Part shown: positions 4,308 to 43,506 of the stretch, piece by piece | Layout of the letters: every line of letters begins with the position of its first letter | How positions within the stretch are numbered: the stretch's first letter is position 1 | Assembly: GCA_022826685.1 (NCBI GenBank) | Contig: JAJDUL010000060.1 | Coordinates: forward strand, 1-64,000 | Length of the DNA stretch: 64,000 nucleotides | Direction: 5' to 3' | Origin: Gemmatimonadota bacterium | GTDB lineage: Bacteria; Gemmatimonadota; Gemmatimonadetes; Palauibacterales; Palauibacteraceae | Notes under the pieces: model-generated | The model's database searches: none | Told to the model about the DNA's origin: nothing | Seen by the model: the letters and a program-made list of their open reading frames with translations, nothing else | Program-made: the position numbers and the translations under genes

Positions 4308-5327
4308 GTGAAAACGGCCTATGATCTCGCCTGCGAAGCACTCGCCGCGGCCCCTCGACGATGGCTGGTCACGGGGGGCGCCGGGTTCATCGGATCGCAC
4401 CTCGTCGAGCGGCTCCTGACGCTGGGACAGGAGGTCGTGGCGCTCGATGACCTCTCGACCGGAAACCGCGGTAACATCGACGAAGCCGTGGCGGCCTCGG
4501 GCGCCCCGGCGGACCGGTGCCGTTTCCTGGAGCGGGACGTCGTCGATGCCGACGCGGTCCTCGAGGCATGCCGCGATGTCGATATCGTGCTGCACCAGGC
4601 CGCGCTGGGTTCGGTGCCCCGATCCGTCAAGGAGCCGCAGGAGACGTATGCCCGCAACGTCGAGGGATTCATCAACGTGCTGGACGCGGCCCGCGACGCC
4701 GGCGTCTCCCGCCTCGTCTACGCCTCCTCGAGTTCGGTGTACGGGGACTCGCCCTACCTCCCGAAGGTGGAAGCCCGCATCGGAAACCCGGCATCCCCCT
4801 ATGCGGCCACGAAGCGCGTCAACGAGTTGTACGCGGAGATGTACCGCCGCAGCTACGACCTCGAGGTCGTCGGACTCCGCTACTTCAACGTCTTCGGCAG
4901 GAGGCAGGCGCCCAACGGACCGTACGCCGCGGTGATACCGCGCTGGACGCTGCGGATGCTCGCGGGCGAGCCGTGCCAGATCTACGGGGACGGGAAGACG
5001 ACCCGGGATTACTGCTACATCGACAACGTGGTACAGGCGAACCTGCTCGCCGCCACGACGGGGGCGGGGGCGGCGCTGGGCGTCTACAACGTCGCCGCGG
5101 GAGATCCGACGACGCTGAACGAGTTGTTCGCCCTCATCCGGTCGGGGCTCGCGAAGAAGCGGCCGGATGTGGGAAGCGTGGAACCGGTGTACGAGCGCTT
5201 CCGGGTCGGTGACGTGCGGCATTCCTACGCGGACATCTCGAAAGCTCGGGAACGGCTGGGATACGAACCCCGCTGGACGCTCATCGAAGGTCTTCAGTCC
5301 ACGCTCGACTGGTACGCCGCCCTCTGA
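4308..5327 (+). CDS. wbpP: UDP-N-acetylhexosamine (uronic acid) 4-epimerase, WbpP/TviC type
   Basis: A 339-residue extended short-chain dehydrogenase. The N-terminal extension before the Rossmann fold (MKTAYDLACEAL), then TGGAGFIGS at about 22-30, closely resembles TviC/WbpP, which interconvert UDP-GlcNAc(A) and UDP-GalNAc(A). Other family signatures are HQAALGSVPRS, the ASSSSVYGD serine motif, the catalytic Tyr165/Lys169 pair in SPYAATK, RYFNVFGRRQ, and GDGKTTRDYCYIDN. The start is GTG at 4308. A phosphopantetheinyl transferase frame begins at its stop codon. With the partial dehydrogenase at the window start it forms a split uronic-sugar pair for surface polysaccharide. Exact substrate is inferred from overall resemblance. 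Confidence 0.9.
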   Translation: MKTAYDLACEALAAAPRRWLVTGGAGFIGSHLVERLLTLGQEVVALDDLSTGNRGNIDEAVAASGAPADRCRFLERDVVDADAVLEACRDVDIVLHQAALGSVPRSVKEPQETYARNVEGFINVLDAARDAGVSRLVYASSSSVYGDSPYLPKVEARIGNPASPYAATKRVNELYAEMYRRSYDLEVVGLRYFNVFGRRQAPNGPYAAVIPRWTLRMLAGEPCQIYGDGKTTRDYCYIDNVVQANLLAATTGAGAALGVYNVAAGDPTTLNELFALIRSGLAKKRPDVGSVEPVYERFRVGDVRHSYADISKARERLGYEPRWTLIEGLQSTLDWYAAL

Positions 5328-6037
5328 ACGGCGGGGACTGGCCTGCGGGCGCCCGTCCCCCGGGGCTGCCGGGGTCCGACCTTCATGTCTGGAGAATCGA
5401 CCTCTCCGCCTGTGAGGGGTCCGGCGACGACGCCCTCCTGAGTCCGGACGAGCGGGCCCGTGCCGAGCGACTCGTCAACGCGAAGGCGCGCGCCCGGTTC
5501 CGGTGCGCTCGCATCGCGCTGCGACGTCTCCTCTCCGAGTACCTGCGCGCTCCGCCCGGCGAGTTGGCGCTGGAGTACGGAGAGCACGGAAAGCCACGGC
5601 TGGCGTTCGCACCAGGTAGCGACGGGGCCGGCGATGCTCCCCCGTTCTTCTTCAACCTCAGCCACTCGGGCGGACTCGCGCTCTGCGCGGTGGGCCAACT
5701 CGGCGAGATCGGCGTCGACATCGAACGCATCCGGCCGCTCAGCTACCCGGGGGGCCTCGCCCGCGACCACCTCTCCCCCGGGGAACGGCGCCTCCGGTCC
5801 GACTGGGAGACCCCGGCGGCGAGGCCGGAGTTCTTCCGGATCTGGGCCCGGAAGGAGTCGATCCTCAAGGCCGCCGGGCTCGGTCTTTCGCGTCCGCTCG
5901 GCCGCGTCGACACGATTCGCGGGGAACTCGACGGGCGTTCGTGGTGGTTGATGGACCTCTTCCCGGGGGAAGGTTTCACGGGCGCCGTGGCATGCGCCCG
6001 GAGGCCGGAAACCGTCCGGCGGTGGAGTTGGCGGTGA
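5324..6037 (+). CDS. 4'-phosphopantetheinyl transferase, Sfp type, apparent CTG start
   Basis: Transfers phosphopantetheine from CoA to carrier proteins. The Sfp-family layout is clear: LHVWRIDLS near the N-terminus, LLSPDERARAERL, FFFNLSHSGG, GVDIERI with the Mg-binding Asp at about residue 131, and the FFRIWARKESILKAAG helix carrying the WxxKE motif. The coding signal extends well upstream of the first ATG/GTG/TTG in frame (TTG at 5564), which would delete the first third of the domain. Back to the in-frame stop at 5210 there is no canonical start. The CTG at 5324-5326 overlaps the epimerase TGA as CTGA, like the common ATGA coupling, and gives 237 residues, the usual Sfp size. A second CTG at 5366 is the alternative. 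A sequencing error or pseudogene is also possible. Confidence 0.8.
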   Translation: MNGGDWPAGARPPGLPGSDLHVWRIDLSACEGSGDDALLSPDERARAERLVNAKARARFRCARIALRRLLSEYLRAPPGELALEYGEHGKPRLAFAPGSDGAGDAPPFFFNLSHSGGLALCAVGQLGEIGVDIERIRPLSYPGGLARDHLSPGERRLRSDWETPAARPEFFRIWARKESILKAAGLGLSRPLGRVDTIRGELDGRSWWLMDLFPGEGFTGAVACARRPETVRRWSWR

Positions 6038-12574: not shown

Positions 12575-12997
12575 TCAGCAGCCCTTCCGGCCGGCCCGTC
12601 CGTAGCGGTCCTCGAGGCGCACCAGGTCGTCCAGTTCCGGCGTGCTCACCTCGAGGATGACGCTGTCCTCGAGCGCCTCCATGCGATGCACGTTCCCCGG
12701 CGGAATGGAGACGACTTCGCCCGGGAGCCACTCGAAGACTTCATCGTTGAGCGTAAAAAGCATGCGCCCGGACTGGAGCAGCATCGTTTCGTGCTTCACG
12801 AGGTGCTTCTGCAGCGAGAGGACGTGCCCCTTTTCGACTTCGAGGACCTTCCCCGCGTAGCGGTCCGTGTGGGCGTACCACACCTCGCGCCCCCAGGGCT
12901 TGTCCACGATTCGGGGCTCGCCGCGGCCCGCCGCCGCCCGCTCTTCGGCGTGCATGGGTGCAGCGGCGCGCCCGTCCCCCGTCGTATGCCGTTCCAT
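12575..12997 (-). CDS. Mannose-6-phosphate isomerase type II-like cupin
   Basis: A 140-residue single cupin. It matches the C-terminal isomerase domain of type II phosphomannose isomerase/GDP-mannose pyrophosphorylase: KPWGREVWYAHT, then the metal-binding cupin signature LSLQKHLVKHETM, GRMLFTLND, PGEVVSIPPGNVHRMEAL, and SVILEVSTPELDDLVRLEDRYGR. Standalone domains of this kind interconvert mannose- and fructose-6-phosphate or act as related sugar isomerases. The ATG at 12997 is the first plausible start; the ATG at 12955 would give 126 residues and also keeps the domain. The gene is divergent from the DUF4377 lipoprotein. A role in GDP-mannose supply is inferred. Confidence 0.85.
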   Translation of the reverse strand: MERHTTGDGRAAAPMHAEERAAAGRGEPRIVDKPWGREVWYAHTDRYAGKVLEVEKGHVLSLQKHLVKHETMLLQSGRMLFTLNDEVFEWLPGEVVSIPPGNVHRMEALEDSVILEVSTPELDDLVRLEDRYGRAGRKGC

Positions 12998-13132
12998 GAT
13001 GTGACATGATACACCGGCGGCCGCCGCGACGCCGGACGCGGAATCGGGTCGGCACGATGTTCGCGGCGCGAGAACCCCCGAGCGGCTGACGGGTACGATT
13101 ATCGGTCGAATCGTCGGAGACCCGGTTGAGAA

Positions 13133-13138
13133 AGGAGA
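13133..13138 (+). promoter_or_regulatory. Shine-Dalgarno AGGAGA that selects an ATT start
   Basis: AGGAGA lies 6 bases before the ATT at 13145, ideal spacing. An in-frame TGA at 13127 limits the start to downstream positions, and no ATG/GTG/TTG occurs in frame before 13244, which lies past the signal peptide. This site therefore decides the start of the DUF4377 lipoprotein. Confidence 0.65.
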
Positions 13139-13144
13139 ACTCCC

Positions 13145-13939
13145 ATTCGCGGCAGAAGCTTCGCTTTCGTTCTGCTCCCGGCCCTGGTCCTTGCCGGCTG
13201 TGGCGGTCCCACGGGACCCGGCGAGCCCGCATACCTCGAGGTCGTGGAGGTGACCGTCGGCCCCACCCTCGCCAAGTGTTACGGCGTGGGCCTGCGGTCG
13301 TGCATGGTGGTCGACGGCGGGTTGTTCTACGACGGAATCGAAGGGTTCGAATACGAGGCCGGGTACGACTACCGACTGCGGATCGGCAAGTACGATCCCT
13401 GGGGTGGGAGGGAACCGCCGCAAGACGCCGGCGCGTACGCCTACCGCCTGCTGGAGCTACTGCAGAAGGCTCCGGCGCCATCCACCCCGGCAACCCTCTC
13501 CGTGGGTCCCGCGCGGGTCATATGCGCACCGAGCGATGATTTCTGTCCGGTGGTGGACGGTGCGCCGTACAACGACCTCATCAACCGTTTCGAATACGAG
13601 GGCGGCTACCACTATGTCCTGGAAGCCAACCGGTATGGCGATGGCCGGTACGTGCTGAGCGACGTCGTCTCCAGGACCAGGGCAGCCGGCACGGAAGTGG
13701 AGATCACCGTCGATCGCCACAGGGTCGAGTGCGGCGACGGCTATCCCGGGTACTGCAAGGTCTTCGACGGCGTCCCCTACCGCGGCGAGATCGTGGGCTT
13801 CCAGCCCCGGCACGAAGTCGACTACCGCCTGCGCGTCGAGCGGTTCGACATGTTCCCCGAAGGCATGACCGGATCGCCGAACGTCCCGACCCACGGCTAT
13901 CGCTGGCTGGAAACGCTCGAAGCTACGCCCGGCACCTGA
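13145..13939 (+). CDS. Lipoprotein with three tandem DUF4377 repeats, apparent ATT start
   Basis: A predicted 264-residue lipoprotein. From ATT at 13145 the frame gives a basic N-terminus, a hydrophobic stretch (FAFVLLPALV) and the lipobox LAGC. Three repeats of about 70 residues follow, beginning near VEVTVGP, ATLSVGP and VEITVDR. Each has a cysteine pair about 12-15 residues apart, a VDG/FDG motif, and in the first two FEYExGYxYxL, while the first and third end in YxYRLLE/YRWLETLE. This pattern matches DUF4377, a domain of unknown function found in secreted bacterial proteins and linked to HslJ-like folds. A GTG at 13244 would remove the signal peptide and part of repeat 1. It is convergent with the SUMF1-fold gene; 38 bases separate the stops. 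Function unknown. Confidence 0.8.
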   Translation: MRGRSFAFVLLPALVLAGCGGPTGPGEPAYLEVVEVTVGPTLAKCYGVGLRSCMVVDGGLFYDGIEGFEYEAGYDYRLRIGKYDPWGGREPPQDAGAYAYRLLELLQKAPAPSTPATLSVGPARVICAPSDDFCPVVDGAPYNDLINRFEYEGGYHYVLEANRYGDGRYVLSDVVSRTRAAGTEVEITVDRHRVECGDGYPGYCKVFDGVPYRGEIVGFQPRHEVDYRLRVERFDMFPEGMTGSPNVPTHGYRWLETLEATPGT

Positions 13940-13976
13940 CCTCCTCCACGACGCGGCCGCGCGCTCCGGCGCGACG

Positions 13977-15356
13977 TCAGGGGAGCGTCCGGGCCACGCG
14001 GAATCCGTAGTACATATCCCTGGTGTCCGGGAGATTTCCGGACCGGTTGGCGGAGCGGAGGAACCACGCAGTGACAAACCAGGATCCGCCGCGGAGGACG
14101 CGACGGTCGCAGTCCCCGGATTCCCAGGCGCTGCCATCCGTCGGAGCGCCCGCGTAGCTGTCGTTCCAGCAGTCCTGCGTCCACTCCGACACGTTCCCCA
14201 GCACGTCGTACAGCCCGAACGCGTTCGGTGCGAAGGATCCCACCGGCGCCGTGGTTCCGTAGTCATCGGCACACGGTCCGTCGCGTACGTAACCGGAGAG
14301 ACCCGCGACCCGGAGCCGTCCGGGGCGCCGCGCGGCGCCGTTCGCGTAGCGGCACAGGTCCGACAAGTCCTCCCCCCAATGCCGGGCCGTCACCGTGCCG
14401 GCCCGCGCCACGTACTCCCACTCCGCCTCGCTCAGAAGCCGGTACCGCTGTCCCGTCAGTCCTGAAAGCCATGACACGTACGCCTGCGCGTCCTCCCAAC
14501 TCACGTGGATCACCGGACGACGCCCCCGGCCCCAGCGCCGGTCGGCCGGCGTATAGCGGCACCCTCCCATCCGCACGCACGCATCCCACTCCGCGAACGT
14601 GACTTCGTGCACCCCGACCGCGAATGGAGCCTCGATCGTCACCGAGTGCTGCGGACCTTCGACGGCTCCCCGGAACTCCTCCGACTCCGGGGAGCCCATC
14701 GTGAACGTTCCCGGCGGCACCACGACCAGCTCCGGACAGAACGCGCAGTCGCGGAACGCGTCGAACACCTCGAATACCTGTGCCGGGGGCCGATCCGCCG
14801 TCCCGGGCGCCGCGCCGTCCTCGACGCCCCAGCTTTCGCGGGCGAGGACTTCGTAGCCGCCCCCGTCGTAGTACCTCGCAAAATGATCGTTGCCGGTCGT
14901 CGCGTTCGTCTCGGCCGCCTCGGCGCTCGGCCCGAATCCGATGGAAAGGCGCTGGAACGCGGAGCCGTCCGGATCGGACGTCGGGGCGAGACGGACCGCC
15001 GACGTGTACCTGATGATCGCGACGTGCTGGTCACCCCGGTTCGACCAGATACACGAAACTTCCGTGTGGTCGTCGAGCTCCGAGCGCAGGGCTCGTTCCA
15101 CGCGCTGCCGGCCGTCGAGCGGGACGCCGACCCGGTAGGCCAGCGCCACATCGGACCGGTAGACGACGGCCATGCCCTCCCAACCGAAGCGGCGGTCGGG
15201 ATCCGGGGTTCGCGGCGTGGACAGCTCGCTCCCCACGCACACCACCGTTCCCGCCTCGGACTGCGCGCTGGCCGGAACGCTCCCGGCGAGCAGCATGAGA
15301 CCCGCCGCCGCGCTCGCGACGGTCGCGACGACAAGGCTCCGTGGTCGCAGACCCAA
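13977..15356 (-). CDS. Secreted SUMF1/FGE-fold protein
   Basis: A 459-residue exported protein starting with a signal peptide (LVVATVASAAAGLMLLAG, then SVPASAQ). A non-conserved N-terminal half of about 200 residues is followed by a SUMF1-type (formylglycine-generating-enzyme sulfatase) domain: VVVPPGTFTMGSPESEE, VGVHEVTFAEWDACV, HVSWEDAQAYVSWLS, LLSEAEWEYVARAG, DVLGNVSEWTQDC, RVLRGGSWF, YGFRVAR. The C-terminal segment where true FGE carries its catalytic cysteines has none (RSANRSGN), so it is not expected to oxidise sulfatases; many such proteins are binding or unknown-function homologues. The start chosen is TTG at 15356 because GGAGG lies 7 bases upstream; a GTG at 15425 is the alternative. 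It lies downstream of dnaE2 on the same strand after 107 bases. Confidence 0.85.
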   Translation of the reverse strand: MGLRPRSLVVATVASAAAGLMLLAGSVPASAQSEAGTVVCVGSELSTPRTPDPDRRFGWEGMAVVYRSDVALAYRVGVPLDGRQRVERALRSELDDHTEVSCIWSNRGDQHVAIIRYTSAVRLAPTSDPDGSAFQRLSIGFGPSAEAAETNATTGNDHFARYYDGGGYEVLARESWGVEDGAAPGTADRPPAQVFEVFDAFRDCAFCPELVVVPPGTFTMGSPESEEFRGAVEGPQHSVTIEAPFAVGVHEVTFAEWDACVRMGGCRYTPADRRWGRGRRPVIHVSWEDAQAYVSWLSGLTGQRYRLLSEAEWEYVARAGTVTARHWGEDLSDLCRYANGAARRPGRLRVAGLSGYVRDGPCADDYGTTAPVGSFAPNAFGLYDVLGNVSEWTQDCWNDSYAGAPTDGSAWESGDCDRRVLRGGSWFVTAWFLRSANRSGNLPDTRDMYYGFRVARTLP

Positions 15357-42277: not shown

Positions 42278-42919
42278 CTAGGGGGCCAGCGAGCGGGCGC
42301 CCGCGCCGCCCGTGATGGCGATCACGGCATTCTGGTTGCCGTAACCGTCCTCCACATAACGTTCCGCGTGCGGATCCGTGATCCAGGTCTCGCCGTCCAC
42401 GAGGAACATGTACTTGTGCACGCCGGGCGGGAGCTTCACCCGGCCGGTCCACACGCCGGTCCCGTAGGGATCGGCCAGCGCGACCTCCGGCTGCCAGTCG
42501 TTGAAGTCGCCCGCAACGTGGACCGACGCCGCGCCGGGCGCCTCTAGACGGAACTGCACGTAGTGGACTTCTTCACCCACGAGCGCCGTCGCCGCCCCCG
42601 CCGGCTCGGTGTACACGTTCTCCCGCGGCAACAGGAAGAACGTTGCAAGCACTGCGGCAGCAGCGAGTCCCAGCCAAGGCCGGACGCGCACGGAGCGGGG
42701 ATGCACCCACCAGTCCACGAGACTCGGCAAGGGCCGGCGCCTCTCCTGGCGAACCTCGGCCATGACCCTCGACTCGAGTCCGACCGGAGCTCCCTGCACC
42801 CCCGAATCCCGCACGTCCGACAGGAGGGCATCCCACCGCTCGGCTTCCCTGCGAAACTCCCGCGAGAGTTCCGACCGGTCGATTTCTCCATCCAGGTACA
42901 GCTTCAGATCGTCGTTCAT
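42278..42919 (-). CDS. Anti-sigma-like membrane protein with periplasmic CBM48/AMPK glycogen-binding domain
   Basis: A 213-residue bitopic protein. Residues 1-75 are charged and helical (LKLYLDGEIDRSELSREFRR), resembling cytoplasmic anti-sigma segments. A membrane helix follows at about 80-98 (WLGLAAAAVLATFFLL). The rest is an early-set CBM48/AMPK-beta-type glycogen-binding domain: VHYVQFRLEAPGAASVHVAG, DFNDWQ, GVWTGRVKLPPGVHKYMFLV, DGETWITDPHAERY. By topology the sugar-binding domain lies in the periplasm. The ATG overlaps the sigma-factor TGA (ATGA), so the two are translationally coupled as sigma/anti-sigma pairs usually are. It has no zinc-finger HxxxCxxC motif, so sigma binding is inferred from position. 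The CBM is normally found in cytoplasmic glycogen enzymes. Confidence 0.85.
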   Translation of the reverse strand: MNDDLKLYLDGEIDRSELSREFRREAERWDALLSDVRDSGVQGAPVGLESRVMAEVRQERRRPLPSLVDWWVHPRSVRVRPWLGLAAAAVLATFFLLPRENVYTEPAGAATALVGEEVHYVQFRLEAPGAASVHVAGDFNDWQPEVALADPYGTGVWTGRVKLPPGVHKYMFLVDGETWITDPHAERYVEDGYGNQNAVIAITGGAGARSLAP

Positions 42920-43506
42920 CGGTAGTTCTCTAACAGCACCTGTAACTGATCCCGAGCCCGATGGACGCGCATCTTCAACGCGGACACCGAAGCTCCAAGT
43001 CTCTCAGCCATCTCTTCGTACGACCAGCCCTCGACGTGCTTGAGGACGAAAGCTTCACGCTGTTCTTCGCTCAGTGACTGCAAGGCCCGGTATATCTGTT
43101 CCCGTATTTCCGCCCGTTCGGCGCGCGCCTCGGGAAGACCCCGCGTCGCCGTCAGCGGGCCGGCCGCCTCCAGCGATACTTCCCGCCGCGCCCGCCCCTT
43201 CAACTGATCCTTGCACAGGTTGACGGCGATTCGAAACAACCAGCCTCCCACCCGTTCCCGGTCACGGCAGCGGTCGAGGCTCCGAAAGCCGCGAATGAAC
43301 GTGCGCTGCACGATATCCGCGGCGTCGTCCGCGCGCCCGGTCATGCGCTCCGCGTAGCGGTACAGCACGTCCTTGTACCGGCGCACGAGAACCCCGTACG
43401 CCTCGCGATCGCCTTCGATTACGGCGGTCACGACATCCGCGTCGCTCGGTTCATCGTCCGGAACCCGACCCTCCGGCCCGATCCGAAAGATCTTCTCTTC
43501 GTGAAT
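42916..43506 (-). CDS. ECF RNA polymerase sigma factor, apparent ATT start
   Basis: A 196-residue sigma-70 family factor of the ECF type. Region 2 is clear (AYGVLVRRYKDVLYRYAERM, DAADIVQRTFIRGFRSL) and so is region 4 (LSEEQREAFVLKHVEGWSYE, EMAERLGASVSALKMRVHRA). The first in-frame ATG/GTG/TTG, GTG at 43431, gives only 171 residues and cuts into the usual N-terminus. Coding-like sequence continues upstream (PSDADVVTAVIEGDREAY) to an ATT at 43506, preceded by GAGGT 6 bases away; the in-frame stop is at 43531-43533. I therefore place the start at ATT 43506, giving a normal ECF length. It ends in ATGA overlap with the CBM48 anti-sigma-like gene, its probable regulator. Confidence 0.85.
   Translation of the reverse strand: MHEEKIFRIGPEGRVPDDEPSDADVVTAVIEGDREAYGVLVRRYKDVLYRYAERMTGRADDAADIVQRTFIRGFRSLDRCRDRERVGGWLFRIAVNLCKDQLKGRARREVSLEAAGPLTATRGLPEARAERAEIREQIYRALQSLSEEQREAFVLKHVEGWSYEEMAERLGASVSALKMRVHRARDQLQVLLENYR

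Follow-up and report, generated by a model that had tools for sequence, protein, structure and literature searches.

The question raised by this locus is whether a reading frame for a lipoprotein is started at ATT, and whether such a start is peculiar to this gene or a sign of relaxed start selection in the lineage. The window, the whole stretch of 64,000 nucleotides analysed here, forms part of a contig of 115 kb; the draft genome to which this contig belongs (3.28 Mb, 73 contigs, 90.85% complete) is that of an uncultured marine bacterium of the genus Candidatus Palauibacter, Gemmatimonadota. The genomes of this genus are MAGs. With a probability of roughly 0.92, judged from sequence comparison, the region 13145-13939 is an intact gene that starts at ATT and encodes a lipoprotein in which a DUF4377-like repeat occurs three times.

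The reading frame and its product

The sequence was read directly across positions 12600-14800 of the window. The features of the locus are as follows.

13127..13129, plus strand: in-frame stop TGA by which the frame is closed, 18 bases ahead of ATT (read directly; G013 and G014 have it at this position too)
13131..13138, plus strand: Shine-Dalgarno (SD) sequence AAAGGAGA, with the core AGGAG at 13133-13137, 7 bases before ATT (read directly)
13145..13147, plus strand: proposed ATT start codon (comparison of the column with relatives)
13145..13198, plus strand: predicted lipoprotein signal peptide MRGRSFAFVLLPALVLAG, the initiator presumably being Met (translation and ortholog comparison)
13190..13201, plus strand: lipobox LAGC, with the Cys codon at 13199-13201 (Cys invariant in 26 aligned rows)
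13241..13480, plus strand: repeat 1, DUF4377 (PF14302) (Pfam)
13244..13246, plus strand: GTG, the first canonical in-frame codon (ORF list and frame scan of relatives)
13481..13699, plus strand: repeat 2, DUF4377-like, under the Pfam cut-off (Pfam on the cut piece and profile-profile comparison)
13694..13936, plus strand: repeat 3, DUF4377-like, without a Pfam match but resembling repeat 1 by profile (profile-profile comparison)
13937..13939, plus strand: stop codon TGA (read directly)

The frame from ATT at 13145 to TGA at 13937-13939 consists of 264 codons and encodes I/M-RGRSFAFVLLPALVLAGC. AGGAGA is read directly at 13133-13138, 6 bases ahead of ATT at 13145-13147, as stated in the original prediction, and the other coordinates of that prediction that were checked are also correct: the frame is closed by the stop at 13127, contains no ATG, GTG or TTG before 13244, and gives upon translation from ATT a full lipoprotein signal that ends in LAGC. 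When inspected by eye, MRGRSFAFVLLPALVLAGC contains a positive n-region, a hydrophobic core and the lipobox L-A-G-C near the N-terminus, as expected for a lipoprotein. The properties looked for at an AUU start are likewise found at 13145, namely a frame without a canonical alternative and an AGGAG SD sequence with a 7-base spacer. GTG at 13244 is located past the lipobox, and a start at this codon would remove the signal peptide. Coupling to an upstream gene fails as an explanation of the ATT start, because the called genes that flank the lipoprotein gene are both on the opposite (minus) strand.

The product would be a membrane-anchored protein that faces the periplasm or the outside. When the whole protein is compared with Pfam, DUF4377 (PF14302) is detected at residues 37-108, in repeat 1 only, with a score of 64 bits against a cut-off of 25. 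When the repeats are searched separately, a score of 12.1 bits is obtained for repeat 2 and no match for repeat 3. The predicted triple DUF4377 architecture is borne out by profile-profile comparison, which joins all three repeats where Pfam alone detects the first: the E-values, obtained with shallow profiles, are 2.8e-11 and 1.5e-11 for repeat 1 against repeats 2 and 3, and 2.4e-06 for repeat 2 against repeat 3. The AlphaFold2 model is all beta with a mean pLDDT of 85 (below 50 for residues 1-26), and a Foldseek search of the PDB with this model gives no match at E <= 0.001, the best being 0.27. CipA of Acinetobacter baumannii, as described in PMC9361855, is composed of two META domains and one DUF4377 domain. 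It resembles the lipoprotein in having DUF4377 and an all-beta structure, but differs from it in that the latter contains the DUF4377-like unit three times and is not matched by META in Pfam, and no function is transferred from CipA.

The start column in the genus and in other relatives

When 17 genus genomes are searched, 13 are found to hold a full-length ortholog with 80-100% identity; the partial matches of G015 and G016 (40-43% identity) and the second matches of G004 and G005 are not counted as orthologs, and L080-L082 (31-39% identity) are left out of the start-column comparison. The column is occupied by ATT, ATG or GTG behind the same SD sequence and spacer in 12 of the 13 orthologs, which is above chance. 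It is ATT in eight (G000, G004, G005, G013, G014, G008, G001 and G003), ATG in three (G002, G007 and G009) and GTG in one (G006), while the remaining ortholog, that of G010, starts with ATG within a different leader. AAGGAG or GAGGAGG is present at the SD site of all these orthologs except that of G010, and the spacer of the other 12 is of one pattern throughout (ctcccATTcg, ctccaATGcg, ctccaGTGcg). Because G004 and G005, and likewise G001 and G008, are near-copies, the eight ATT rows represent about six lineages.

The codon that precedes the start is CCC in 8/8 ATT rows (in G003, before the first of two ATT) and CCA in the four ATG/GTG rows that share the leader. This linkage may reflect a single segment that was inherited or exchanged. 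In G003 (L010, about 1486-1512), a 12-base tandem duplication across the start generates two in-frame ATT codons. No canonical codon is present between the upstream stop and +99 in G000, G004, G005, G013 and G014, and in-frame GTG codons are located at −87 or further upstream in the ATT rows G008, G001 and G003. Among 17 further close relatives outside the genus set, the column is ATG in 13 and ATT in one (L063, in which TAG precedes it in frame at −15 and TTG follows at +24), and the start is moved in three (L068, L070 and L078). The contigs of the relatives are labelled Candidatus Palauibacter or other Gemmatimonadota MAGs, with a few Latescibacterota or Gammaproteobacteria, and come from separately named MAG series.

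A tree was constructed from 27 rows with the start codon excluded from the data; L068, L070 and L078, in which the start is moved, and eight contigs that double genus rows (L055-L061 and L077) were left out. The rows carry ATT in 9 cases, ATG in 17 and GTG in one, and at least four start-codon changes are required. A single ATT clade is rejected on this 27-row tree (AU p 7.8e-05), and every row outside the group formed by Palauibacter and L063 has ATG. The changes may be gains, reversions or exchange of the 5' end, which are alike on the tree. ATT is very probably a working start that took the place of ATG and lasted.

Probable translation from ATT and its alternatives

Within the clade to which the window belongs, the four species with ATT give a pN/pS ratio of 0.25 for codons 2-19 (10 synonymous against 6 non-synonymous differences when all pairs are added up) and of 0.26 for codons 34-264. 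The corresponding values are 0.36 and 0.23 for seven ATT rows of the genus, and 0.70 and 0.17 for five canonical rows of the genus, all from small counts of changes. The signal peptide is most likely translated and used in the ATT lineages, because codons 2-19 are under purifying selection there.

This selection bears on the possibility that translation starts at GTG 13244 and produces a cytoplasmic protein, the signal peptide having been lost in the ATT lineages. No canonical codon precedes GTG 13244 in the frame, and the ORF list takes it as the start, but no SD sequence lies at a usable distance from it, whereas the one ahead of ATT is retained and the lipobox Cys is invariant, so that such a start is highly improbable. 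Entry into the frame from upstream, either by readthrough of the stop, by a frameshift from TTG 13126 or from an upstream GTG, is less probable still. An overlapping frame does start at TTG 13126, and the frame is open with upstream GTG codons in G008, G001 and G003. However, TTG 13126 is replaced by TCG in G004 and G005, where the upstream open frame contains no canonical codon, TGA is present at −18 in G000, G013 and G014, and it is the spacing from SD sequence to start that stays conserved.

The view that ATT is a sequencing or assembly error for ATG, raised in the original prediction as recurrent base errors, is almost certainly wrong. The draft state of the genome and the ATG of most outside relatives would fit an error, but alignment of close relatives at 13145, which had been proposed as a check, reveals the same ATT in seven other genus assemblies and in L063, from several MAG series. 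ATT is instead taken as the real start, because the column is kept across separately assembled species and interchanges there with ATG and GTG.

In initiation at ATT, the strong SD sequence would set the initiator tRNA on AUU, and AUU would be decoded as fMet at reduced efficiency, perhaps a tenth of that of AUG by analogy with the non-canonical starts tested in Staphylococcus aureus (PMC13009471). The low output would keep the lipoprotein scarce, and its translation may be sensitive to IF3, which is encoded in 17/17 genus genomes. A hairpin that sequesters the SD sequence was considered and rejected: the SD sequence pairs with signal-peptide codons in the folds, but downstream shuffles do so equally (25 rows, 23 with a scorable SD sequence). 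No RNA structure above chance is found at the start when these 25 rows, 23 of them scored, are folded and compared with shuffles. The infC gene of some other bacteria starts with AUU, AUA or AUC, and that of E. coli is autoregulated through IF3. The E. coli AUU loop is absent at infC here, because infC starts with GTG in 17/17 genus genomes (loci L018-L034), and autoregulation of the infC type via AUU is rejected on the same ground.

Rarity of ATT starts and known counterparts

The original prediction had suggested that two ATT starts in 64 kb may point to relaxed start selection in the lineage. The other start meant is probably that of an ECF sigma gene, the best candidate found in the window.

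42916-43506, minus strand: ECF sigma gene, candidate ATT start at 43506-43504, in-frame TGA 27 bases upstream, preceded by TAGAGGTCGTCTT

Of the 17 genus genomes, 16 retain this ATT, some of them at 76-82% identity. A second conserved candidate therefore exists, but its start is ambiguous. The same block can be read as GTGACC-N16-CGTCTT, which resembles an ECF promoter; the GTGACC/CGTCTT pattern with spacers of 15-18 gives four matches in the own genome and none for the reversed control. If this element is a promoter, the 5' end of the transcript would lie at ATT or downstream of it. The codon may otherwise be an AUU start comparable to that of Streptomyces sigR, where GTC serves as the start and is repressed by IF3 (PMC5472188). 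That both candidates fall within the same 64 kb appears to be clustering by chance.

The survey of start selection covered the window and, from 60 of the 73 contigs, up to 20 kb at the beginning of each (1,019,119 bases, 31% of the genome), in which a codon-usage caller gives 773 genes. Codons anchored by a strong SD sequence near gene starts are far more frequent in frame than in the two other frames together for ATG (97/7) and GTG (31/9), with 12/8 for TTG, whereas ATT is not enriched (3 in frame against 5). AAG (19/9), ATC (16/15) and CTG (14/14) are somewhat raised in frame, possibly as an effect of codon usage. When the set of SD sequences is widened, 12 ATT sites are obtained in frame; another canonical codon is located in the vicinity of 10 of these, in several cases an ATG directly ahead. 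The two others are the ECF gene, with GTG at +75, and 13145, the sole site without any canonical codon from −150 to +75. Comparison with G010 (839,247 bases, 229 ortholog pairs) gives the lipoprotein and ECF genes as the only ones that stand out by eye among ATT columns. The ECF candidate and several CTG codons overlapping a stop in CTGA, without a nearby canonical codon, are in favour of lineage-wide relaxation, of which ATT at 13145 would be one sign. However, the lack of ATT enrichment and the uniqueness of 13145 among the 773 gene calls render this reading very unlikely, and the proposed search for further genes of this kind yields, for SD-linked ATT lacking a canonical codon nearby and within 31% of the genome, 13145 alone.

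In an ab initio list, a canonical codon nearby is lacking for 57 of 729 genes; these are mostly noise and useful as leads only. A survey of conservation change-points was set aside, because neighbouring genes overlap and 139 of 229 pairs were left unresolved. A third ATT candidate, a DHFR-like gene (L100 near 19030), has matches in only 2 of the 16 other genus genomes, at 31% identity, and was set aside as too sparsely matched for a comparison of its start. The gene at 5324-6037 of the window, plus strand, which by eye is phosphopantetheinyl-transferase-like, begins at a CTG overlapping the stop of the preceding gene (CTGA) and has no ATG, GTG or TTG for some 80 codons thereafter. The CTG is kept in 6/6 genomes shown, including the own one, but its C may follow from the upstream gene. 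CTG also overlaps an upstream TGA at the apparent starts L083:9025 (minus), L127:11626 (plus; TTGA in the G010 counterpart) and window 55773 (plus). In the L103:18259 region (minus), a gene that by eye is pyrF-like has ACG where G010 has ATG, and an ATC behind GGAGG is common to both genomes.

AUU initiation, with low output expected, occurs on chromosomal genes of E. coli, infC and pcnB. The Palauibacter lipoprotein gene shares this start with them, but the infC gene of Palauibacter itself starts with GTG. In S. aureus, AUU of cvfC1 and AUA of ccpN and infC were identified as starts by retapamulin profiling and reporters, and the non-canonical starts tested give about 10% of AUG output (PMC13009471). 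These genes resemble the Palauibacter gene in that a conserved AUN start behind a strong SD sequence was overlooked by annotation, but they encode a small protein and regulators, not a lipoprotein, and are proven experimentally. The presence of ATG and GTG at the same column in sister species is a feature of Palauibacter, unlike the S. aureus cases. In Streptomyces, according to PMC5472188, the IF3-repressed GTC start of sigR lies behind a strong RBS, is kept in 32 of 34 species and holds translation down. The sigR gene is similar to the lipoprotein gene in its rare conserved start behind a strong RBS, but differs in the codon and in encoding a sigma factor, and it is a closer precedent for the ECF gene at 43506. 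The existence in Palauibacter of a small set of AUU-controlled genes (the lipoprotein and the ECF sigma factor at 43506), tuned by IF3 and switched by species between AUU, AUG and GUG at a fixed column, is a tentative and rather unlikely proposal.

No paper on an AUU start codon in Gemmatimonadota was found in the open-licence literature. The lipoprotein gene is a new AUU-start gene within an already known kind (infC, pcnB, cvfC1). Gene-calling programs in common use recognise no starts other than ATG, GTG and TTG, and would thus truncate an ATT gene such as this one, remove its signal peptide and file the lipoprotein as cytoplasmic. The most useful feature of the gene is the switching between ATG, GTG and ATT at one column. 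The three codons behind one SD sequence in sister species form a natural series, in which the effect of start-codon strength and the frequency of its change may be followed.
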